A stretch of DNA of 64,000 bases from a virus: positions 1 to 64,000 of IMG/VR virus record IMGVR_UViG_3300028800_000071; one strand, given 5' to 3'. Below are positions 422 to 59,333 of this stretch, one piece after another. The notes under the pieces were generated by a model, which worked only from the letters and a program-made list of their open reading frames with translations, was not told where the DNA came from and ran no database searches. Position numbers and translations under genes: made by a program. Every line of letters starts with the position of its first letter. Position 1 is the stretch's first letter.

Positions 422-658
422 TTATAGGCAGACCTCCTCCCAGGGCTCCAATCCACCCGCCGCGATGGTTTCACGGATCTCGGCGCGTTCCGCCATGAGC
501 TTCTGGACGAGTGGTTCCGGGGCTCCCGTTTCGCGGAGAACCGCCAAGTGATGCGCGTCGGTCTGGTTATGCTCGAAGCGGGCCTTCGTGGTGTTGGGGT
601 AGGTTTCAGGCTTTCCCGAGCAGTTACAGGTGAGGGTTGCTGGCTGTGAGTTCTTCAT
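422..658 (-). CDS. Hypothetical protein, 78 aa
   Basis: The ATG at 658-656 is preceded by a good Shine-Dalgarno (GGAGAC directly upstream on the minus strand), which argues for this strand over the overlapping plus-strand frame. The N-terminus has CNCSGKP and a His-rich stretch; the C-terminus is acidic (GLEPWEEV). It lies head to head with the methyltransferase gene, with about 30 bp between the two starts, so divergent promoters are expected there. Function unknown. Confidence 0.6.
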   Translation of the reverse strand: MKNSQPATLTCNCSGKPETYPNTTKARFEHNQTDAHHLAVLRETGAPEPLVQKLMAERAEIRETIAAGGLEPWEEVCL

Positions 659-687
659 GTCTCCATGTTACTGTAACCAGGGGCAGA

Positions 688-1755
688 ATGTCAAGCCCTG
701 TGATCCGCGTCGTGAGTTTATTTTGCGGCCTGGGCGGCTGGGATATGGGGCTATACGCCGCCGCGGATGCGCTAGGCATCGAGGTAGAGGTCGTGGCCGC
801 TTACGACTCTTGGCCGAAAGCGGTTGAGGTTTACAACGCCAACCTCCCGCATCCCGTGGCCGAGGTGCGCGACCTCAAGCAGGTGCAGCGCGAGGACTTG
901 CCGCCGCACGACCTGGTGATCGGCGGACCGCCTTGCCAACCGTTCTCGATGGCGGGGAAGCGCAAGGGCCACGATGACGAGCGCAACTGCCTGCCCGACT
1001 TCCTGCGGCTGGTGGGCGACTCTCCCTACGTCATGGAGAACGTGGTGTCGCGGCTGATTAACGCGCCCTGGAGCGAGAAGTTATGTGCGGCAGACTTTGG
1101 GGATGTCACCTCGCGCAAGCGTTGGTTCTACTCAAACTACTTGCTGCATATTCTGCCGACGCCCGGGCCTCGCCGCATCCGCGATATACGCGACCACGCC
1201 GAAGATGAGCGCGTGCTCGTAAAGCGCGGAGTCTGTAAGGCTGGAAAGCACGGACACTACGACTCCTACGACTCCCTCGACTCCCTATCCGCACACTCAT
1301 GGCACGGGCACGACATACGGGGCAGCGGGAAGCTGTTACCGATTGGGCACAAAGCGATTTGTGGCGAAGCCGGTGTGCTTGGTAGTCTAACACGCACGCA
1401 TCATCACGGGTCGAAGAACGATGGCTACGGGCAACCCACCAAGGACGTTTATTTACGGCTCGGGCTACGCGGCAACTCGGCCTCGGCCTCGGCCTCGGCC
1501 TTCGAGGATGATGAAACGCTCGGCTCGGTTTTGGCAAACTCTTTTCACGGAAACGAAGCATCAAAACTGGTCGGATGCCGCAACCCATCGCTCCTGGAGA
1601 TGGCGCGAGCGCACAGCATCCCTGATACGTTCGATTGGTGCGGCGCAACTAAGAGCGATCGCGGAAAGATGATCGCAAATTCCGTGCCCTGCGGTATGGC
1701 CGCCGGCGTATCTTCTGCGATTCTCCGCGCTCTCACCGGAAAGGTAGCCGCATGA
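688..1755 (+). CDS. DNA (cytosine-5) methyltransferase
   Basis: Transfers methyl groups from S-adenosylmethionine to carbon 5 of cytosine in DNA. Family motifs appear in order: motif I FCGLGGWD (residues 12-19), catalytic motif IV GGPPCQPFS with Cys83, motif VI ENV (117-119), motif VIII SRKRW (142-146), and a motif X variant IANSVPCGMA near the C-terminus. The roughly 180 residues between VIII and X are the target-recognition region; they include a Ser-Ala run made by four TCGGCC repeats (1477-1500). I chose ATG 688 over 637 because AGGGGC lies just upstream and motif I then sits 10 residues from the start. No partner restriction enzyme is next to it, so protection of phage DNA from host restriction is the likely role. 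Confidence 0.92.
   Translation: MSSPVIRVVSLFCGLGGWDMGLYAAADALGIEVEVVAAYDSWPKAVEVYNANLPHPVAEVRDLKQVQREDLPPHDLVIGGPPCQPFSMAGKRKGHDDERNCLPDFLRLVGDSPYVMENVVSRLINAPWSEKLCAADFGDVTSRKRWFYSNYLLHILPTPGPRRIRDIRDHAEDERVLVKRGVCKAGKHGHYDSYDSLDSLSAHSWHGHDIRGSGKLLPIGHKAICGEAGVLGSLTRTHHHGSKNDGYGQPTKDVYLRLGLRGNSASASASAFEDDETLGSVLANSFHGNEASKLVGCRNPSLLEMARAHSIPDTFDWCGATKSDRGKMIANSVPCGMAAGVSSAILRALTGKVAA
1477..1500 (+). repeat. Hexanucleotide microsatellite TCGGCC x4 inside the methyltransferase
   Basis: Four perfect in-frame TCGGCC units encode (Ser-Ala)4 at residues 264-271, within the region expected to hold the target-recognition domain. Gain or loss of a unit would keep the frame but change a linker length. 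Confidence 0.8.
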
Positions 1756-19071: not shown

Positions 19072-20577
19072 ATGCGCGGACAGAATCAACGCAACGTCGT
19101 CGTGCTGCCCGATTACCGCTTGGCGATCTTCGATATCGCGGATCTGCCCTCGCAGTTGCAGCCGATGCTTCAGGCGGGCTTTCTCGCCACGTCGTTCGAA
19201 GATTATCTGGAAGCACACAACGGTTATTGGGAAGGCGTCGATGACGAATCGTTCGCCGAATCCATCTTCGAAAAGAACCGTGGTGTGACGATCACCCGCA
19301 CCCGCCCCGGCCTCAAAGCGCCGGTCGTGGTTGCGGCCGACCCCGTTCAGGCGCAAACGCCGCCAAACGATGGCGTTACGCCGTCGGACTTCTACGTTGA
19401 GCAATACACCTTCGCGCCGTTCGAGCTCACGGACGGCATCGATCTCGATCTCATCGGTACGAACTTCGCTATCGTCGATCGCTTCGAGCACGACGTGCGC
19501 GTGTCGTATCACCAGGGCGTGCAATCGGTCGATCTGCTCGCTCGCGACACGTACCTGGCTGCCTACGGCGCCGCGTACACCGTCCTCACCGGCAATATCT
19601 CCGGTGCCATCATCCCGGTTGACGATATCCGTGGCTTCACCACGGTCATCACCGTCGGCCCGGGCGGCACCAACGGCGTATTGACGGCCGTTTCCAGCGG
19701 CGTCCCGCTGCCGTGCTTCATCTACGTCGGCGGCGATCCGACCAACGTCAAGACGTGCAACGTCACGCTTGCCGCTGCGGACGTGACCAACGTTTCCAAC
19801 TACGTGCCCTACGGTGCGCCGTACGGTACGCCGGGAGCGCCGACGGCCGCACGCGGCAACGGCGTCTCGGGTCACCTTACGCTCGCGAGCATCCAGGGCG
19901 GCTACTCGCCGGTCACGGGTGACGTGATCGTTGCGGGTGACGCGCCGATCCAACTGTTCGCAGGCGGCAGCACCCACTTCTCGCAAGTGACCGGCGGCAT
20001 TTCGCAGAGCAACGTGCTCGATGCAACCGGCTACTTGGAGAACAACGCGGTGCCGCATTCGCGCAACGCCGGCGGTGACGACGAAGGCACGTACGTCTGC
20101 CATGTCGCGCCGTCGATCAATCGGCAACTGTTTGCCGATCCCGACTTCAAGCAGGCGAATCAGACGCTCGGGAAATCGGATATCTACCAGCAGGGTGTGG
20201 TATCGCGGTATTGCGGCGTCACGTTCCTCAAGAACACGAACGCTCCGCGTATCGCTCTTGCGCCGTACGGTGGCAAGGGCTACGCCTACGCAACGGTCAT
20301 CGCCGGTCAAGGCGCCCTGATCGATGCGTGGTACGAGGGCCTCGTCGATTGGGTGGAATCCGCATTCCAGCCTGGTCTCGTCGAGCTCAATCGTGGCATC
20401 GCTCAGATCCTCATGCCGGCATACGCCGATCGTCAGGGTCGCCGGATGCACATCGATTGGCTCACGATCCGCGATATGGTCGCGCCGACCGACGTCACCC
20501 GCTCGTCCGTGATTCTCACGGGCACCGGCGGCCGTCGCGCTCGTGCGGTCATCATCTGGAGCTGGTCGGCAACCTAA
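19072..20577 (+). CDS. Major capsid protein
   Basis: Main shell protein, 501 residues. Position after the scaffold gene, and the sequence HVAPSINRQLFADPDFKQAN followed by a GVTFLKNTNAPR segment and a VIAGQGALIDAWYEG segment, match the P-domain of HK97-fold capsid proteins in large myophages. It is followed by the clearest plus-strand terminator of the head operon, consistent with a highly expressed gene. Confidence 0.85.
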   Translation: MRGQNQRNVVVLPDYRLAIFDIADLPSQLQPMLQAGFLATSFEDYLEAHNGYWEGVDDESFAESIFEKNRGVTITRTRPGLKAPVVVAADPVQAQTPPNDGVTPSDFYVEQYTFAPFELTDGIDLDLIGTNFAIVDRFEHDVRVSYHQGVQSVDLLARDTYLAAYGAAYTVLTGNISGAIIPVDDIRGFTTVITVGPGGTNGVLTAVSSGVPLPCFIYVGGDPTNVKTCNVTLAAADVTNVSNYVPYGAPYGTPGAPTAARGNGVSGHLTLASIQGGYSPVTGDVIVAGDAPIQLFAGGSTHFSQVTGGISQSNVLDATGYLENNAVPHSRNAGGDDEGTYVCHVAPSINRQLFADPDFKQANQTLGKSDIYQQGVVSRYCGVTFLKNTNAPRIALAPYGGKGYAYATVIAGQGALIDAWYEGLVDWVESAFQPGLVELNRGIAQILMPAYADRQGRRMHIDWLTIRDMVAPTDVTRSSVILTGTGGRRARAVIIWSWSAT

Positions 20578-20594
20578 ACCCTGCGATTAACCTA

Positions 20595-20628
20595 AAAGGG
20601 CGGGGCGAGTGATTCGCTCCGCCCTTTA
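20595..20628 (+). terminator. Hairpin terminator after the capsid gene
   Basis: AAAGGGCGGGGCGA pairs with TCGCTCCGCCCTTT (one G-T wobble) around a short GTGAT-type loop, giving a 14-bp GC-rich stem 18 bp past the capsid stop. There is only a short T-run, so it may be partial. Confidence 0.7.
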
Positions 20629-20644
20629 GTTCAGGAGAGATTCC

Positions 20645-21001
20645 TTGACGACCAAACAAAACTTCGGCAAGCAGCCGAAGCTGGACGACCGGCAAGATTC
20701 GCCGCCAGCCGCCGATCAGCGGCCGCAAGAAGGCCGTGGCGATGAGATTGAAAAGCGCGCAGCGCAGACCGATCGAACGGCCAAGACTGCCGTGCAGGTC
20801 GCAAACGGTTCCAACGTACGGCGCGATCGCATTGCGCCACGGGAAAAAGTCTACATTGTCGACGAACTCGTCGAGCGATCGGTGATGGCCGGCTACACCA
20901 CGGTGGTCTTTCGGCCGAACCAAGTGCTTCAAGAGGTCAGGGACAAACGCCAGATCTCCTTGGCGCAAGCCAATAACATTCGGTTACGCGAAAGGGACTA
21001 G
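20645..21001 (+). CDS. Hypothetical head/neck protein, 118 aa
   Basis: TTG start with AGGAGAG upstream. The N-terminal half is polar and probably disordered; the C-terminal half (KVYIVDELVERSVMAGYTTV, RQISLAQANNIRLRER) is ordered. It sits where head-completion genes lie. No family recognised. Confidence 0.55.
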   Translation: MTTKQNFGKQPKLDDRQDSPPAADQRPQEGRGDEIEKRAAQTDRTAKTAVQVANGSNVRRDRIAPREKVYIVDELVERSVMAGYTTVVFRPNQVLQEVRDKRQISLAQANNIRLRERD

Positions 21002-21007
21002 CGCACG

Positions 21008-21853
21008 ATGGCGATCTCGCAAACGCAAATGGCCGAGGTCGCACGCATACTCGGTTTCCCGAACCTTTCACCGCAAACGTCGCTCAACATGGAATACCCG
21101 ACGTTCTCGTCGCAGTTCGCCGTGTTTCAGCCGTACGCGCAACTGCTCAACCGTCTAGCAGGAGCATCCGACGCCGATGAAGTTCAGTATTTCGGGGCCG
21201 AATCTACGAAGTTCGCTTCCTTCTTCACACCGTCTCAGATCGTCCTCACGTTTAGCGGCCCCGGCCCAACGACCGGCGTTATCATCCGCATCAACCTTGG
21301 CGGCAACCAATACGAATATACGGTCAACGATAGCGATACATACGCTTCTATCGCCGCCGCCTTTTCGGCTTCGTTAGCGGACGATCCGCAAGGCTCGGCG
21401 CTCTTTCTTCCCAACGCCGTTGGCCCCGCGCTCGGCCTCTACAACGTCGCCGCCGTCGGAACGGACGGCAATGGCGTGCAATGTATGGCCGGCTCGACCG
21501 ATACGAGCGTCCTGGTATCGTTCGGCGGCGCGGCAGCGCAGTTCGCGGCCGGCGCCACGTCCGGTGGCCAGGTGCCGCCCGGTCCGCAGTTCACGGCGAT
21601 CACCGGCGCACAAAAAGGCCAGGTCGTCTTTGGCTTCGTGCCGATCATTCATTTGCTCGAATCCGATCTCGTCAACGCTCGCGCAAACCTTGATACGCTA
21701 AGTGCCGAAGCCTGGCACCCGCGCCAGGACGAGCTCGACGTGCGCAAGGCGCTGCTCGACAAGTACCGGATCGATCTCGCCAACGGCCTCGCCGTGCCGA
21801 TCGACCCCGATATCATGGGTAACAACAGCCGCGGCTCGCAGCGCATCGTATGA
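21008..21853 (+). CDS. Head-tail connector region protein, 281 aa
   Basis: Contains a beta-rich insert (IIRINLGGNQYEYTVNDSD...ASIAAAFSASL) like those of phage neck and tail proteins, flanked by helical ends (QPYAQLLNRLAG, WHPRQDELDVRKALLDKYR). It follows the capsid gene in the connector position. The precise role is unresolved. Confidence 0.6.
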   Translation: MAISQTQMAEVARILGFPNLSPQTSLNMEYPTFSSQFAVFQPYAQLLNRLAGASDADEVQYFGAESTKFASFFTPSQIVLTFSGPGPTTGVIIRINLGGNQYEYTVNDSDTYASIAAAFSASLADDPQGSALFLPNAVGPALGLYNVAAVGTDGNGVQCMAGSTDTSVLVSFGGAAAQFAAGATSGGQVPPGPQFTAITGAQKGQVVFGFVPIIHLLESDLVNARANLDTLSAEAWHPRQDELDVRKALLDKYRIDLANGLAVPIDPDIMGNNSRGSQRIV

Positions 21854-22647
21854 GCTCGACGCGGATCGAGTATCTCGACAGCAAGATTCAATACGGGCGC
21901 GGCAAGGCCGCAACCGTTTACGGCCAGACGTTCAATATCTACCGGCTCACCAATCAGAGCGGCTCGATACTCGATGGCCATCCGATCTTTGCCGACTTTC
22001 CGCTCTCGCCGATCAAGACCGGCAAAGGTAAGGTCGAGAACCAAGTTTACGACCTGCAAATCTTCGACGCGGCGTTCGACAACACGCTACTCAAGCTCGG
22101 CGACTACTTCGTCGAGGTCGGGCAGTTTGACGATCGCGAACCCGATCACCTGATCTTTGCGCAACGCCGACCTTTCCGTGGCCGCTCGCTCATGATTCGG
22201 TGTGAATCGAACGTTACGATCACGCGACCGCAGCCGCTCGGCGGTGGCTCTGGCCAACAGCCGCGTTCTGGCGGCATTCGTGCCCCCGGCTATATCGGCA
22301 TCACGAAAAAGAACGAGCGCGGGATGCTGCTCGCCAACGGAATGTACTTTTTCAGCAACTCGCTCGTCACGACGCCGATCGCCAACTCCGAAGCGTCGGG
22401 GTTGGCGGCGGTGCCGGCGGCGCTGTTGCAACTCAATCGCATTCGCGATGCTACGATCCCGAAGTTGCCCGTGTCGCTCTTTCGCGAGCATTTTGTCATC
22501 TATATCCCGCCGCTCAATGGCATCATGCTACAGGAGCTCGATCGGTTGAACTTCCAGAACTCGGACCGCTACGAGATCGGCTCGCTCTTTCTGAGCGAAG
22601 AAGGCTTCGTCGGCAACATTGCGATCTGCGAGAAGCTCGGCACGTGA
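21850..22647 (+). CDS. Neck/head-closure-type protein, 265 aa
   Basis: ATG 21850 overlaps the previous stop. A beta-rich protein with YGQTFNIYRLTNQSGSI, DYFVEVGQFDDREPDHLIFA and a helical C-terminus, the pattern of head-closure proteins in large myophages. It is translationally coupled to the receiver-domain gene that follows (GTG 22644 overlaps its stop). Confidence 0.55.
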   Translation: MSSTRIEYLDSKIQYGRGKAATVYGQTFNIYRLTNQSGSILDGHPIFADFPLSPIKTGKGKVENQVYDLQIFDAAFDNTLLKLGDYFVEVGQFDDREPDHLIFAQRRPFRGRSLMIRCESNVTITRPQPLGGGSGQQPRSGGIRAPGYIGITKKNERGMLLANGMYFFSNSLVTTPIANSEASGLAAVPAALLQLNRIRDATIPKLPVSLFREHFVIYIPPLNGIMLQELDRLNFQNSDRYEIGSLFLSEEGFVGNIAICEKLGT

Positions 22648-23105
22648 CGGAGTTTAAGTACGTGCAGCGCGCCGGCGGTGATGCGCCGGCGCCAGCACAG
22701 AAGCCGCCAACGAGCAAGGTGATTGCACCCGGCCCGCGGCCGACGGCGATCATCGCTGACGATTCGGGGCCGACGCGCCGTCGCTTCCTTAGTCTGCTCA
22801 CGCTCTGCGGCGTACAAGTGATCGACCAAGCAACGTCGGGGCAAGAGGCGCTCTGGAAGTGCCGTAAGATGAAACCGCAGATCGCCGTGCTCGACGTAGC
22901 GATGCCGCCTGGCAGCGGGTACGACACGGCGTTGAAGTTGGCCGATAGCCAGATCGTGCCGCATATCATCGTGGTTTCGTCCAACTCGCAAGGGATGGTT
23001 TTCGAACCGTTACGCAAGGCCGGCGTCATGCTGCTCACCAAGCCGGTCAACGACGATCAGTTCATCAAAGAGATAAAGGCGATGATAGCCGATGGCAACG
23101 CTTGA
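22644..23105 (+). CDS. CheY-like receiver-domain protein, 153 aa
   Basis: A stand-alone response-regulator receiver domain after a 30-residue Ala/Pro tail. All key positions are present: acidic pair Asp39-Asp40, phospho-acceptor Asp84 in VLDVAMPPGSG, Ser112 in place of the switch Thr, and Lys133 in TKP. No output domain follows. In bacteria such domains accept phosphate from a histidine kinase. Here the gene overlaps both neighbours (4 bp upstream, 14 bp downstream) in the head-tail connector operon, and no kinase is visible in the window. It could sense host signalling, sequester phosphoryl groups, or be a repurposed structural fold. The family call is firm; the role is open. Confidence 0.9.
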   Translation: MTEFKYVQRAGGDAPAPAQKPPTSKVIAPGPRPTAIIADDSGPTRRRFLSLLTLCGVQVIDQATSGQEALWKCRKMKPQIAVLDVAMPPGSGYDTALKLADSQIVPHIIVVSSNSQGMVFEPLRKAGVMLLTKPVNDDQFIKEIKAMIADGNA

Positions 23106-23991
23106 CGAAGTAGTCGAACAAACCGTTGACACCGTGCTTGCCACGCTCAACGCAGCTGGCGGCGCCAACATACTCGGCGCCGATCCTGCGAACCCGACCG
23201 GGCCGGCGATCTATCGGTGGGTTGCCAATCCGCCGTTTCAATGCGGCTACGGTTGGCCGTACGGACAAGCGTTATCGGAGATCCTCGGGCAGTACCAAGC
23301 GCAAGTGACGGTGTGGCCGCTCGCCGACGCCATGCGCAACGTCACCGATCGAATGCTCTCCTGGAAGTTCGCCGGCGCGGCGCCGGTGGGGCTCAACGTA
23401 AGCTATTCGTGGCTCGACAACGGCAACGTGATTCTCACGTTCGTCGGCAGCGGCGGCGGCTTGAACGTCCATACGATCTTCGGCGAACCCGAGGTCGATG
23501 CGTACTACCTTACGCAAACAGCCGACGATACGAATGCGATCGCAACGGCGGTGATGACGCAGATCAACGCAACGGCGTTGGCCAACGGTCTCGGCGTAAC
23601 AGCGACGGCGGCGAACAATCAGGTTTTCGTCAACGGCGCGAGCAAGATCGTCGTCAATATCGGCGGCGCGATCACGATGAAGCAAGAATCGCGGCGCATG
23701 ATGTGCCCGATTCAAGTGACGGTGTGGGCCGAGGACCCCGACGTGCGCAACGCGATGGCCAAGCAGATCGAGGCAGGGCTCGGGCTTGGCAGCCAACCGT
23801 TCTTGCCGCCGGTCAACGGCGAGCTCATTCGGTTCCGGTTGCAGCGCGGCCCGATTCCGAATGATCTGTCGCAATCGTCGTACTCGCTCTACATAGCGAA
23901 CATAATCTTTGAGGCCACGTACCCGACGTTCGACGTTGCGATGGGCGCAACGATCGGGGCCGTCGAAACTACAATCTCTCAAGAGGTCTGA
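23092..23991 (+). CDS. Tail-completion/terminator-type protein, 299 aa
   Basis: The N-terminus (QVTVWPLADAMRNVTDRML), a beta insert (LNVSYSWLDNGNVILTFVG), and a C-terminal MCPIQVTVWAEDPDVRNAMA helix-strand pattern match a phage family found just before the tail sheath gene, often called tail completion or gateway protein. It probably caps the tail tube or joins it to the neck. Confidence 0.6.
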   Translation: MATLDEVVEQTVDTVLATLNAAGGANILGADPANPTGPAIYRWVANPPFQCGYGWPYGQALSEILGQYQAQVTVWPLADAMRNVTDRMLSWKFAGAAPVGLNVSYSWLDNGNVILTFVGSGGGLNVHTIFGEPEVDAYYLTQTADDTNAIATAVMTQINATALANGLGVTATAANNQVFVNGASKIVVNIGGAITMKQESRRMMCPIQVTVWAEDPDVRNAMAKQIEAGLGLGSQPFLPPVNGELIRFRLQRGPIPNDLSQSSYSLYIANIIFEATYPTFDVAMGATIGAVETTISQEV

Positions 23992-23994
23992 TCA

Positions 23995-25521
23995 ATGGCC
24001 ATGAATTGGCTTGGGACTTTTCTCACCGGCGGCGCAGGCAAGAACGTCATTCAGACGGTTGATCCGAACGTCGATATGGCTTCGATCGGCATCTTCAACG
24101 TTGCGCGCTACGGCATGAACCCGACGGCGGCGCCAGCCGCGAACCGCCTGGCGCTGCTACAAGCCGTCCAGGATGCGCTCTCGGTTGGCGGTAAGGTGTA
24201 TGTCCCAGGCGCGCTCAAGTTCTACCACACGAGCGGCGCCCCGATCGTGATCAGTTCCGGCCAGCCGATTCAGTTGGTTGGCGACGGTGCCGGTTCGGTC
24301 ATCACCAAAGACGACGGTGGCGATCTCTTTCAGTTCGAGAACTACTCGGGCTCTCCGAGCGGCGCGACGATCTCCGATCTCGTGCTGCGCTATACGAACG
24401 TCGAGAGCGGCGGCGGCAACGCCATCTATGCGGCCGGCGCGCAGTTGGTGATCGCCGAACGCGTGTGGTTTCTCAACTGCCCGAGCGCGTACTTCATGGA
24501 CAACCGCTCGTTGCAATGCGGCATGGACAAATGCACGGTCGAGAACACCAAACAAAACAACAGCATTCAGATCGTGCTCAACGGCCCGCAAAACTTCTTG
24601 CGCCAGACGGTGATGCGCCAGCAGCCGATCGGCAGCGGTGGCCCCACCGGCACCACGGCTGTGCAACTGCTCGGCAACGCCTCGACGCTCGACGCCGTGC
24701 AAATGTCGGACTTCAACGTTGGTCTGGCGATCGGTCAAGGCGCCTTCCGTAACTACATATCGAAGATCTTCTCCGAGGCGTGGACGACGGCGCTGCTGAT
24801 CATGCCCGCCGGCAACAGCGGTCAAATCTTTAAGATCTACATTGCGCAATGCGACTTCGCGCAAACCAATAACTCGAACGTCACGACGGCCGGCGTCATT
24901 GTCGACCCGAACGGCGGTCCCGACACGAACCTCGAGGAAATCGAGTTCACGGCTTGCACGAGCGATGGCTGGATCGGCCCTGGCTGGCAACTCAACGGCG
25001 GCAAGATCAAGTTGATCGGCGGCGCGGGGCGCGGCAATGGCGGCGGCGGCTTCCTAGCAGCTGGCGGCTTCGCCAAGCTCCGAGGCTTCGATGCGCTCGG
25101 TGCGCAGGTCGGCGCATCCGCAACGCAACCGTACGGCTTGATGGCGTCCGGCGCAGGCGCAATCGACGCCGCAGCGTGCGATCTGCGCGGCAATCTCACG
25201 GGCGCGCTGCACAACACGTCGAGCGGCTCGGTGTTGCTCGACAACTGCCCAGGCTACACCGATCAGAATCTCGCTGTCGATCTTACGGGCTCGCCACCGG
25301 CATCCGGCAGCGCCTTCAAGGCGTCGCAGTTCGGCTACTTCGGCAAGAAGGCGGTGTTTGAGATCGCCGGCGGCACCGTCACGGCGATCAAGCGCGGTCC
25401 CAATCCGTCAACGCTCAAAGCCACCGGCAGAACGCTCGGTGATCTCGTGCTCGGCGAAAACGAGTATGGCGAGCTCGAGTATTCGGTGGCGCCGACAACT
25501 CTTTTCTTCGTCGGCCACTAA
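23995..25521 (+). CDS. Right-handed beta-helix (pectate-lyase-like) protein
   Basis: 508 residues. The opening motif (FNVARYGMNPTAAPAANRLA, then GGKVYVPGALKFYHTS) is that of the pectate-lyase-3 / tailspike superfamily, followed by many strand-turn repeats (ISDLVLRYTN, VERVWFLNCPS-type rungs). Such proteins are usually sugar-binding or sugar-cleaving spikes. It lies between the tail-completion gene and the sheath gene, not with the fibres, so it may be a capsid or neck appendage. No catalytic residues can be assigned by eye. Confidence 0.7.
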   Translation: MAMNWLGTFLTGGAGKNVIQTVDPNVDMASIGIFNVARYGMNPTAAPAANRLALLQAVQDALSVGGKVYVPGALKFYHTSGAPIVISSGQPIQLVGDGAGSVITKDDGGDLFQFENYSGSPSGATISDLVLRYTNVESGGGNAIYAAGAQLVIAERVWFLNCPSAYFMDNRSLQCGMDKCTVENTKQNNSIQIVLNGPQNFLRQTVMRQQPIGSGGPTGTTAVQLLGNASTLDAVQMSDFNVGLAIGQGAFRNYISKIFSEAWTTALLIMPAGNSGQIFKIYIAQCDFAQTNNSNVTTAGVIVDPNGGPDTNLEEIEFTACTSDGWIGPGWQLNGGKIKLIGGAGRGNGGGGFLAAGGFAKLRGFDALGAQVGASATQPYGLMASGAGAIDAAACDLRGNLTGALHNTSSGSVLLDNCPGYTDQNLAVDLTGSPPASGSAFKASQFGYFGKKAVFEIAGGTVTAIKRGPNPSTLKATGRTLGDLVLGENEYGELEYSVAPTTLFFVGH

Positions 25522-25539
25522 CCAACGAAAGGTTGAACA

Positions 25540-25752
25540 ATGCCCGTAGACTACAGCTATCGCGTGCTCACCGTCGGCGTCCATATTCCAGAGAGTGGAA
25601 AGAGTTACGAACCTGGCGACGTGATTACGGGCGACGATGCTCGTGCCGTCGAGGCCGATGGAACGCTCTTAAAGCGTTGCGGCCGCATTGCGCCAACCGC
25701 GACGGCGGCGCCGGCCCCAGATCAGAAACCCGCCGATCCCGGCAGCAAGTAA
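25540..25752 (+). CDS. Hypothetical protein, 70 aa
   Basis: GAAAGG upstream. The short sequence (YRVLTVGVHIPESGKSYEPGD) resembles the small beta-rich protein often encoded just before the tail sheath in myophages, with an Ala/Pro-rich tail. Function unknown. Confidence 0.55.
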   Translation: MPVDYSYRVLTVGVHIPESGKSYEPGDVITGDDARAVEADGTLLKRCGRIAPTATAAPAPDQKPADPGSK

Positions 25753-25780
25753 CAACACCCGGCTTTAGGGAGTTCTCGCA

Positions 25781-27439
25781 ATGCCTATCACCAATCAAGG
25801 CCCGACGCAACAGGTAGTGCCGAACGTTTACGTTCAGGTCCTCCCGCCGTTGCAGGCGCTTAATCCGTACATTGCAACGTCGCTCAACGGCTTCGTTGGC
25901 GTCGGCAATTGGGGTCCGGTCAATACGCCCGTGTTTTGCGGCGATTCCGCGTCGATCACTTACGCGTTCGGCAATGATTCGGTAGGTTTGACGACCAGCG
26001 GCCTCAACGCTTCGCTCATTCAGGAAATGCTCACGGCGCTCAACGAGGACGGCAACTCCGTCGGCGTTCGCGTCACGGACGGCACCGATACGCCGGCCAC
26101 GATCAAACTCATCGACACCGCCGGTTCGCCCGGTACGCTCGTTACGCTCACGGCGCGCTACTCGGGTTCGCTCCCGATGGGCAACGTCGCGACCAACACG
26201 CCGGCTGCCGGCGCTCGCGTTGATTCGGTCGGCACCAACCTCTTTCGCGTCACGATCTTCTTCCCCAATCAAGCGCCGCAGGTGTATAACAACATTTCCG
26301 GCGGCATCGGCTTTGGCGGCGGCGGTGGCAGTTACTCTGCCTCTGTATTTAAGAACAACGTCATTGCGGCGATCAACGGCACCGCGCCGAACACCACGCC
26401 GAACCCGTTCTTCTTCGCCTCCACCGGCGCGTCCACGGTCGCACCGAAACTCGCGACGGTGTTTGCGCCGGATACGAACAGCGGCACGGACGGCACGCTC
26501 GGCGTCGTTACGGCCACCCTGATCGGAACCGACAGCGCCACCGGCGCACGCACGGGCATCTATGCGTTGCGCGGCACCGGCGCCTTCCACATGGCGATCT
26601 GCGGTTGCACCGATCTCGCCCAGGCTGCAACGCTCTCGGCGTTCTGTACCACGGAGAATATCGCGCTCGCCTTCCTCACCGTGCCGAAGGGCACGAGCGA
26701 TAGCGGCGCGGTCGGTCTGCGCGTGACCAACAGCGTCGCGCTCAGTAACGTGGTGCTCGTCAAGGACTTCATCTACGTCTACGACGCGATCTTGCAGACG
26801 TACCGTTACGTGTCGCCGATCGGCAAAGCCATGGGCATCGTCGGTCTGCTCGCACCGTACGCCTCGCCGATCAATCAGCCGTACGAGATCACCGGGCTCT
26901 CAGCGGCCGGCGTGTACTCGACCGAGCAGACGCCGCTCGGACCGCGCTCGCAGGACGAGCTCGGCTATCTGCTCACCAACGGTTTCGTGTCGATCACGAA
27001 TCAGATTCCGCTCAATAACGGCGCATACGGCTTCTTCGACGACGTTTGCTCCAATGGCGATCCCGCGACGAACAACGGGGCCGGCACGTACATTCCGGTG
27101 ACGCGCATGACGTCGTTCCTGTCGCAGGCCTTCGAGGATATCGGCGCTCAGTACGTCGGCAAGCCGCAAAGTACGGCCGCCAACGATCCGACGCGGTTGG
27201 CGATCGAAGGTGCGTTCAATAACTTCCTCTCCTCGCTCAAGCCGAACGGCGGTCAGTCGCAGATTGATTCGTATAACGTTACGTGCGATCTCACGAACAA
27301 CTCACCGGCGAGTATCGCGGCCGGGTATTGCTACGTGAAGATCCTCGTTCGGTATCTCGGCATCGTGCGTATCCTGTGGATCACGCTGCAAGGCGGCACG
27401 AACGTCACGATCAGCAACCAGCCGCCTTCGGCTGGCTAG
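25781..27439 (+). CDS. Contractile tail sheath protein
   Basis: 552 residues. The N-terminus (VPNVYVQVLPPLQALNPYIA, SLNGFVGVGNWGPVNTPVF) and the conserved C-terminal core (RTSFLSQAFEDIGAQYVGKP-type region, NFLSSLKPNGGQ, YCYVKILVRYLGIVRILWI) identify the sheath family. Together with the tube gene downstream it shows that the phage is a myovirus. Confidence 0.9.
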   Translation: MPITNQGPTQQVVPNVYVQVLPPLQALNPYIATSLNGFVGVGNWGPVNTPVFCGDSASITYAFGNDSVGLTTSGLNASLIQEMLTALNEDGNSVGVRVTDGTDTPATIKLIDTAGSPGTLVTLTARYSGSLPMGNVATNTPAAGARVDSVGTNLFRVTIFFPNQAPQVYNNISGGIGFGGGGGSYSASVFKNNVIAAINGTAPNTTPNPFFFASTGASTVAPKLATVFAPDTNSGTDGTLGVVTATLIGTDSATGARTGIYALRGTGAFHMAICGCTDLAQAATLSAFCTTENIALAFLTVPKGTSDSGAVGLRVTNSVALSNVVLVKDFIYVYDAILQTYRYVSPIGKAMGIVGLLAPYASPINQPYEITGLSAAGVYSTEQTPLGPRSQDELGYLLTNGFVSITNQIPLNNGAYGFFDDVCSNGDPATNNGAGTYIPVTRMTSFLSQAFEDIGAQYVGKPQSTAANDPTRLAIEGAFNNFLSSLKPNGGQSQIDSYNVTCDLTNNSPASIAAGYCYVKILVRYLGIVRILWITLQGGTNVTISNQPPSAG

Positions 27440-57579: not shown

Positions 57580-58815
57580 TTACTGCCGAAGCGGCATGAT
57601 GATGCAGTAATCGCCGGTCCGATTCGCCAGGACGAGCGGCGAGAGCGGGTTGTGCAGGTCGGCTTCGATCTGCTCGTAATCGTCGAACGACGACAGGCAG
57701 CTGGCGAGATACTCGGCATTGAAGGCAATGCTCATATCGTTCGCGAGCGGCTTGGGCGCCGGTTCGGTGAACGCGACGAGACGCGTGAACTTTCCTTTCG
57801 TCTCGCTCTCGGCGTTGATCTCGACGGCGTTGCCCTTGGCAAGGAACAGGAGTTTGATCAACGATGCGCGGTCGCTGGCCACTTTGCCGGCGGCCGTCAC
57901 GGCGGCGATCATTTCATCCACGGGGATACTGACTGTGCCGCTGATCATAGCCTTCGCCGGATAGACGGCTTCGTAGTTCGGGTACTGACCGTCCACGCAG
58001 CGGCAGATCACGGTGATGCCGTCGCTCACGGCGATGGCGTACGTGGTGTTGGCCTTGACGGTGATCGAGACTTCGACTTCGCTGGCCTTCGGCAGAACTT
58101 TCATCATCGCTCTAGCGAATACGGGAACGACGATGGCCTTGCCGCCGGTGCCCTTCTTCTCTTGATCGCCGGTGAACGAATCACGAACGACGGCATCCTC
58201 GATCTGGAAGTGTCCCATTTTGTAGCCGTCCGTTGCGGTGATCGCTGCGCCGGCGTTGCCTTTGATTTCGAGCAGCGTGCTCATGAGCGTGGCGCCGCGC
58301 GCTTGTTCGTCGCTCGCGTGCTTACTGCATTTGAGGAACGCCACGCGTACGTTGTCCGTCGGCGCGAGGAAGGCCGCGATGCGTTCGCCGTCGGTTGGCG
58401 GATAGGCGGGGAGGTCCTCGGCCGGCAGAGTGGGCAGCGTGACGCTGCCAATTCCCCACCCGAGATCGTCGGCGCTGGCGAGGGAGAGTTTATCTGCCTC
58501 GAACGTCAAGCGAACGTTCCCGTGAACGCCCTTGAGCATTTCCTTGAGCGCCTTGGGGCTAACGGTCGTTTCACCGGCGGTGATGCCGACGGCCGGGACT
58601 TCGGCGATGATGCGCGTTTCGAGATCGGTTCCCGTGATCGAGAGTTTGCCGGTGCGGTGATCGGCGCTCAGTTTCACGTTCGCCAAGATCGGCGTATGCG
58701 AATGCGTGTTGACGGCGAGCAAGACTTGCGTGAGTGCCTTGACGAGATTCTTGGCGTCGGTGACGACGACGGCGGGTTCGAGTTTGGTTTGTGCTTGTGC
58801 CATGTTGATATTCAT
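57580..58815 (-). CDS. dnaN: DNA polymerase III beta sliding clamp homologue
   Basis: 411 residues. Three-domain clamp pattern: NLVKALTQVLLAVNTHSHTP (domain 1 opening), ITGTDLETRI, a central ATDGYKMGHFQIEDAV, and a C-terminal KLLFLAKGNAVEINAES, ANDMSIAFNAEYL and CIIMPLRQ, the PMRL-like end that forms the partner-binding pocket. It encircles DNA and tethers polymerases. ATG 58815 overlaps the upstream stop (ATGA); ATG 58803 is an alternative. It is the only recognisable replication protein here; it probably replaces or competes with the host clamp. Confidence 0.85.
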   Translation of the reverse strand: MNINMAQAQTKLEPAVVVTDAKNLVKALTQVLLAVNTHSHTPILANVKLSADHRTGKLSITGTDLETRIIAEVPAVGITAGETTVSPKALKEMLKGVHGNVRLTFEADKLSLASADDLGWGIGSVTLPTLPAEDLPAYPPTDGERIAAFLAPTDNVRVAFLKCSKHASDEQARGATLMSTLLEIKGNAGAAITATDGYKMGHFQIEDAVVRDSFTGDQEKKGTGGKAIVVPVFARAMMKVLPKASEVEVSITVKANTTYAIAVSDGITVICRCVDGQYPNYEAVYPAKAMISGTVSIPVDEMIAAVTAAGKVASDRASLIKLLFLAKGNAVEINAESETKGKFTRLVAFTEPAPKPLANDMSIAFNAEYLASCLSSFDDYEQIEADLHNPLSPLVLANRTGDYCIIMPLRQ

Positions 58816-59333
58816 TCTCCTACGGGTGCGTTGTGTGTATTGTAGAACGCCGCGACGGCGAGATTCTTGAGCATTGATTCGATGGCGCGGCATTCGGCAG
58901 CGGCGTCAACTTCGATCGCATCGAAGGCCACGTCGCCGCATTCGTCCCAAAGAATCCTGCCGCGTGTATCTATGGGACAGGTGATGAGGGTGTCGCCCTC
59001 TAGCCAATAGACCTGCGCGTCGTCAAGGATGACGAGTTGCGTGCCGGTCGGCGGCGAACTTGTATCGACTTTCTTCTCGAACTTGAGGCGGTCCGTGAGA
59101 TCGACTTGTGCATCCGCCAACTTCTCGGCGTAGTTCTCCAAGTCGAGGCAGACCTGATTGAAGTCCGGCAGATAGCGCGGGTAATCCACTTGCGCGTCGA
59201 GATCGTGATCCCACGCTCGTTGCAGTTGGCGCGCGGCCTGTGCAAAGAGCATCGCGGCCTCTGGCATATCGGGGCAGGCGGAACAGAACTCGTTGGCGGC
59301 TTTGCCGTGGATGCAGTCGTAGGCGCGCTTCAT
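58812..59333 (-). CDS. Hypothetical protein, 173 aa
   Basis: An N-terminal CIHGKAANEFCSACPDM Cys/His group, then a helical middle (MLFAQAARQLQRAW) and acidic C-terminus. It shares its stop with the clamp start and overlaps the upstream gene. Function unknown. Confidence 0.6.
   Translation of the reverse strand: MKRAYDCIHGKAANEFCSACPDMPEAAMLFAQAARQLQRAWDHDLDAQVDYPRYLPDFNQVCLDLENYAEKLADAQVDLTDRLKFEKKVDTSSPPTGTQLVILDDAQVYWLEGDTLITCPIDTRGRILWDECGDVAFDAIEVDAAAECRAIESMLKNLAVAAFYNTHNAPVGE

Follow-up and report, generated by a model that had tools for sequence, protein, structure and literature searches.

Lone CheY-like proteins have already been reported from the late modules of phages, and the idea of such a gene therefore has precedent: gp30 of V22 and gp11 of A5, both Alteromonas phages, are CheY-like late proteins that were suggested to be auxiliary metabolic genes (PMC7289586, PMC10579305). 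In H4/4, the product gp44 carries a response-regulator annotation, and its gene is flanked by a holin-like gene and the terminase genes. Phage-encoded receiver folds also include the cREC domains of jumbo phages, divergent receivers linked to NAD/ADP-ribose enzymes (PMC7824862). No description of a receiver (REC) domain in a neck or head-tail module was found in the open-access literature; judged by the literature searched, such a conserved REC appears to be undescribed.

The DNA analyzed here (the window) is a stretch of 64,000 nucleotides belonging to an 80,795-base IMG/VR virus record, and carries the markers of a contractile-tailed phage: terminase (PF04466), capsid (phrog_1357), sheath (phrog_23), tape measure, gp25-like and baseplate J proteins. 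Its lone receiver gene, located between a stopper-like and a terminator gene (hereafter, slot REC), shares with V22 gp30, A5 gp11 and H4/4 gp44 the absence of any other domain, a place in a late module (host recognition or lysis in the known cases) and the lack of an adjacent annotated kinase; a complete phosphorylation site like that of the slot REC was also read in V22 gp30 and H4/4 gp44. Nevertheless, the receivers of V22, A5 and H4/4 follow tail fibre/chaperone or holin genes, whereas the slot REC was found between the stopper and the terminator in 14/14 phages. In a tree built without A5 gp11, V22 gp30 and H4/4 gp44 fell outside the clade of the slot RECs (support 93/82), and the V22 and H4/4 receivers reached 41–56 bits against the slot-family profile, compared with 94–137 bits for left-out slot RECs. 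Unlike the cREC domains, the slot REC is a canonical PF00072 domain without NAD/ADP-ribose enzymes as neighbors.

Among bacterial proteins, the best solved relatives by profile were Thermotoga maritima CheY (1tmy, E 3.8e-27) and similar single-domain receivers, which have the same length. Many slot RECs carry, as T. maritima CheY does, the motif Ser/Thr-x-x-x-Gln after beta4 (SSNSQ vs SAMGQ). The slot REC is a single-domain protein like CheY, but the aromatic residue at the Tyr106 position is mostly absent, and the gene lies in a phage neck operon with no chemotaxis or flagellar genes seen nearby. The nearest cultured relatives of the phage were the Komagataeibacter phages phiKX1 and phiKX2 (LC644975, LC644976), at about 24–30% identity for portal, capsid and sheath (about 30% for the latter two). 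Both have the gene order of the window (portal, capsid, stopper-like, terminator, sheath), but in phiKX1 the stopper-like gene 520 adjoins the terminator gene 530, without a receiver.

Results

A Stand-Alone Receiver Gene in the Neck Operon

The first-pass annotation had described a CheY-like receiver with every landmark residue in place, no output domain and short overlaps with both neighboring genes. The encoded protein of 153 aa matched PF00072 (Response_reg) over residues 36–144, with E 4.8e-14 and 52.9 bits against a gathering cut-off of 30.2, and the match spanned profile positions 2–110 of 111. The landmarks listed in Table 1 were present at the positions claimed, and the Pfam profile search of the 153-aa product bore out that an output domain is absent. 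As for the overlaps, the 14 bp shared with the downstream gene were confirmed, whereas the 4 bp shared with the upstream gene hold only if GTG 22644 is the start. The alternative start GTG 22662, with GGAG nine bases upstream, was better supported, and the receiver proteins of most relatives start directly, or almost so, at the REC domain; the Pro/Ala-rich first ~33 residues are therefore uncertain.

Table 1. Features of the head-tail joining region, in window coordinates.
Feature	Position	Strand	Evidence
Major capsid protein	19072..20577	+	phrog_1357 E 1e-8; 30% identity to phiKX1 coat protein
Stopper-like neck (head-completion) protein, phrog_14605-like (working label)	21850..22647	+	phrog_14605 E 2.8e-6
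Stand-alone receiver (CheY-like) gene	22644..23105	+	PF00072; orthologues in the same slot in 13 other phages
Asp39-Asp40, acidic (Mg2+) pocket	22758..22763	+	unvaried in 14/14 slot RECs
Asp84, phospho-acceptor	22893..22895	+	unvaried in 14/14 slot RECs
Ser112, conserved Ser/Thr	22977..22979	+	Ser or Thr in 14/14 slot RECs
Lys133, conserved Lys	23040..23042	+	unvaried in 14/14 slot RECs
Predicted tail terminator/tail sheath completion protein	23092..23991	+	phrog_13532 E 6.4e-19
Fibre/spike-like insert between terminator and sheath genes	23995..25521	+	phrog_3449 tail collar E 0.0011
Tail sheath	25781..27439	+	phrog_23 E 6.9e-26

The names first given to the two neighbors, a neck and a tail-completion protein, were guesses, and they fared differently. 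An AlphaFold2 model of the downstream protein, based on an 8-sequence alignment (pLDDT 72), matched in Foldseek, among others, the phage 812 neck protein (8qkh_G, E 4.1e-6) and the Pa193 gateway/terminator (9b42_G), as well as "tail sheath stabilizer and completion" proteins among the BFVD viral models; these structural matches support its identification as a tail terminator/sheath-completion protein. The AF2 model of the upstream protein (pTM 0.69) gave only weak matches, the best among phages being the stopper-type neck proteins of Pam3 (8hdr_A, prob 0.97), R4C (8gtf_M, prob 0.93) and Chi, with E of 0.09–0.25. Its assignment as the head-completion stopper is thus weakly supported, and "stopper-like" is used as a working label. 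From these identities, the receiver would sit between the last head-side and the first tail-side gene.

The stretch from capsid to sheath was an insertion hotspot, holding long fibre/spike-like inserts among others, with junctions that differed among relatives (window 23995–25521; L171:10622–12658; L099:12166–16439; L086 12683–20482). The insert of the window had no same-size counterpart at that place in phiKX1; it lies outside the receiver unit and shows that the stretch accepts cargo genes. Elsewhere, two C5-cytosine methylases and an MT-A70 adenine methylase were encoded (window 637–1755 and 1793–2335, L002:12375–13904), pointing to heavy DNA modification, and the phage encodes its own DNA polymerase III beta (sliding clamp) at window 57580–58893 (-). 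An IS110-family transposase-like ORF was located at L002:15493–16341 (about 76492–77340 of the record). A further IMG/VR contig of 9,784 bases (L089) encoded proteins identical to those of the window from terminase to capsid.

The Receiver Occupies the Same Slot in 14 Phages

The same gene was then sought between the neck and tail-completion genes of related phages, and was present there in 14 distinct IMG/VR phages (the window and 13 others), a recurrence far in excess of chance. A scan of viral contigs with the single receiver protein gave no match. The capsid scan, in which an alignment of the window and phiKX1 capsids was used, yielded 80 loci; all of the near relatives spanning the slot (L084, L085 and L090, 69–83% capsid identity) carried the receiver there, as did the record behind L086 (58% capsid identity), seen as L177. 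Scans with the stopper gene added L170, L171 and L167 (as L220), all with a slot REC. Scans with a receiver alignment found L167 again and added L221, L222/L223 (near-identical), L225, L227, L229 and L230, and the gene order stopper-like, receiver, terminator was observed in all of the relatives obtained in this way. Since some of the 14 were found with the receiver as bait, unbiased counts are given separately: the slot REC was present in 6/7 phages from the stopper bait and in 4/4 MCP relatives of >50% identity whose record spans the slot. An identical arrangement in 14 records from different samples rules out a misassembly or a contig junction.

Partial REC sequences in L124, L113, L121 and L127, lying beside host-like genes at contig ends and outside the slot, were dropped as degenerate receivers. 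Four distant relatives (L182, L183, L184 and L185) also had a partial receiver-like protein (about 160–170 aa) next to a host-like gene at their contig ends, where it is probably part of flanking host DNA. The stopper family itself had no match in 399 Pseudomonadota genomes.

The receiver was restricted to this group. When 47 records were searched with PF00072, a match in the slot was obtained only in this clade, with five weak partial matches elsewhere. Capsid and sheath were on one contig in 51 of the capsid-bait loci, and in the 48 of these that are not close relatives no receiver was detected by tblastn or with the family profile. The terminator gene followed the stopper-like gene, with no receiver between them, in L093, L098, L099, L147 and phiKX1. 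The nearest phage lacking the receiver was L173, which came from the stopper-gene scans, has adjacent stopper and terminator genes and branches just outside the clade on the stopper tree.

The Phosphorylation Site Is Conserved and the Output Face Is Not

Pairwise identity among the slot RECs ranged from 22 to 65%, and only 10 of the 116 alignable columns of the 14 sequences were invariant (A38, D39, D40, A69, P78, L83, D84, M87, G92 and K133). The chance that the quartet D39/D40/D84/K133 falls entirely within these columns is 3e-5, a value that treats columns as exchangeable and serves as a guide only. For the closest pair, L090 and L167, dN/dS of the receiver was about 0.17, similar to that of the stopper and terminator genes, with dS near saturation. 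Beyond generic REC positions, C73 was found in 12/14 sequences and a Gln four residues after the Ser/Thr was frequent; no other family-specific residues stood out. The position of CheY Tyr106 (K-3) was mostly non-aromatic (Leu130 in the window; L,W,A,A,A,F,F,V,T,T,L,V,V,L in the 14 members), and the alpha4-beta5-alpha5 side was not conserved. Judged from these alignments, the phosphorylation chemistry is constrained in the slot RECs and the usual output face is not. The retention of both Asp84 and Lys133 in every member, together with the presence of the gene in the slot of 14 phages, agreed with the initial view that an unusual signaling-type gene lies inside the head-tail joining module, and also with the view that this is not mere structural reuse of the fold.

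Regarding the source of phosphate, no HATPase_c kinase was detected in the nine phage records searched (that of the window included), which are partly incomplete, while the controls were positive in 14/14 genomes. Pfam scans, which covered part of the small ORFs, found no kinase or Hpt among 40 proteins of the window and its flanks. A phage-encoded kinase partner forming a two-component pair was rejected on the basis of the nine records, which may be fragments; on the same basis, any phosphorylation must rely on host donors.

A Probable Single Acquisition Followed by Vertical Descent

The slot RECs formed one clade when compared with 46 cellular and other viral receivers, in a tree of moderate support and mostly proteobacterial cellular sampling. 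Cellular RECs scored at most 92 bits against the family profile, the narrowest margin being that of L177 (94 vs 92 bits). The identity matrices agreed between receiver and stopper (Mantel r 0.805) and between receiver and terminator (r 0.72; P 1e-4 each), and the presence of the receiver on the stopper tree was explained by one change, a single gain. Because the slot RECs form one clade whose divergence follows that of the stopper and terminator genes, the simplest account is that the receiver was probably gained once by an ancestor of this phage clade and then descended vertically in place. A recent one-off capture from a host was ruled out, as the family was recovered by capsid, stopper and REC-alignment scans, forms one clade and outscores cellular RECs.

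The gene starts on which the linkage distances depend are mostly predictions. With these starts, the receiver and terminator genes abut or overlap in 12/14 phages (receiver stop to terminator start, −26 to +1 bp), whereas the distance from stopper to receiver ranged from −1 bp to 3.9 kb. On the stopper side, L084 carried an HNH-type (homing-endonuclease-like) gene (L084:12080–12889) together with a 74-aa ORF, L177 a 151-aa ORF, and L171 an insert of 3.9 kb that included a fibre gene. A receiver-terminator gap of about 250 bp, which could hold a small gene, was seen only in two related phages (L225:6358–6615 and L229:6361–6601).

Discussion

The phages of this clade probably sense a chemical signal from the host during the late phase of infection. 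As to what the signal controls, we lean slightly towards an assembly or virion factor gated by phosphorylation, rather than an effector acting late on host signaling; this preference for a phospho-switch that gates head-tail joining, as an assembly factor or minor particle component, is a tentative one, held at somewhat less than an even chance. The receiver would be made late and, through the overlapping frames, in a fixed ratio with the tail terminator. It would take its phosphate from a host histidine kinase, a phosphotransfer protein or acetyl phosphate, a host donor being required since the phages have no recognizable kinase. A phosphorylation-dependent change might then gate a protein contact in head-tail joining, for example by holding or releasing the terminator or the stopper, and completion of the particle would thereby depend on the signaling or energy state of the host via a CheY-like phospho-switch.

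Stable retention, a fixed slot, the frame overlap with the terminator and a congruent history fit a morphogenesis gene, and such retention is more typical of morphogenesis genes than of accessory ones. The finding that the larger foreign inserts are on the stopper side of the receiver, with the terminator link kept, also favors the assembly role. Against it, we know of no receiver domain that serves as an assembly or virion protein, and relatives without the receiver (phiKX1, L173 and about 48 others) evidently build the same neck and sheath. Furthermore, apart from C73 the conserved columns are those shared by receivers in general, which leaves no family-specific docking face apparent, and location in the slot is by itself no proof of a structural role, as the slot takes unrelated cargo (HNH, fibres).

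It is also quite possible, if short of probable, that the receiver is phosphorylated by the host and acts on host signaling late in infection, draining a phosphorelay or replacing a host CheY or response regulator. Its targets might be motility, the envelope, polysaccharide or dormancy, and the neck operon would merely provide late, abundant expression. The lack of a phage HATPase_c kinase in the nine records agrees with this role, as does a complete phosphorylation site without an output domain, the layout of single-domain regulators such as CheY and Spo0F; the nearest solved relatives are Thermotoga CheY and similar proteins, and V22 gp30, A5 gp11 (PMC10579305, PMC7289586) and H4/4 gp44 provide late-module precedents. 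Variation in the alpha4-beta5-alpha5 side and at the Tyr106 position would be expected if the partner varies by host. However, accessory effectors usually come and go, whereas this receiver was probably gained once, has been kept in place down to 22% identity and has diverged in step with the neck genes.

An internal regulatory role, in which the phosphorylated receiver binds a transcription or lysis factor of the phage or the host and times late events while leaving the neck untouched, would suit the late-operon position and the place of H4/4 gp44 beside lysis and packaging genes, but it is improbable given that the protein has no DNA-binding output domain, that no promoter-like sites were found in 20400–25900 and that the link is specifically to the terminator gene. 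Neutral cargo, or reuse of the fold with phosphorylation irrelevant, is very improbable: although the region is prone to insertions (HNH, fibres, large inserts), the quartet D39/D40/D84/K133 (beyond chance by the guide value above) and Ser/Thr112 are kept in all members, and dN/dS is low in the closest pair.

Returning to head-tail joining, the full proposal, in which a genuine phospho-switch fed by host donors serves these phages as a checkpoint in the process or as one of its components, is less likely than not; if true, it would be the first two-component-type signaling protein in virion morphogenesis. Lone phage receivers have so far been treated as occasional auxiliary genes. In the present case, an old and conserved receiver belongs to the head-tail joining module of a whole phage clade. 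With its 14 members and a sister phage lacking the receiver, the family makes the question of function directly testable. If the protein acts on host signaling, the family, with its conserved active-site residues, would be a defined one in which to study how two-component networks are tapped by phages; a role in assembly would represent a new way for a virus to couple completion of its particle to host physiology.
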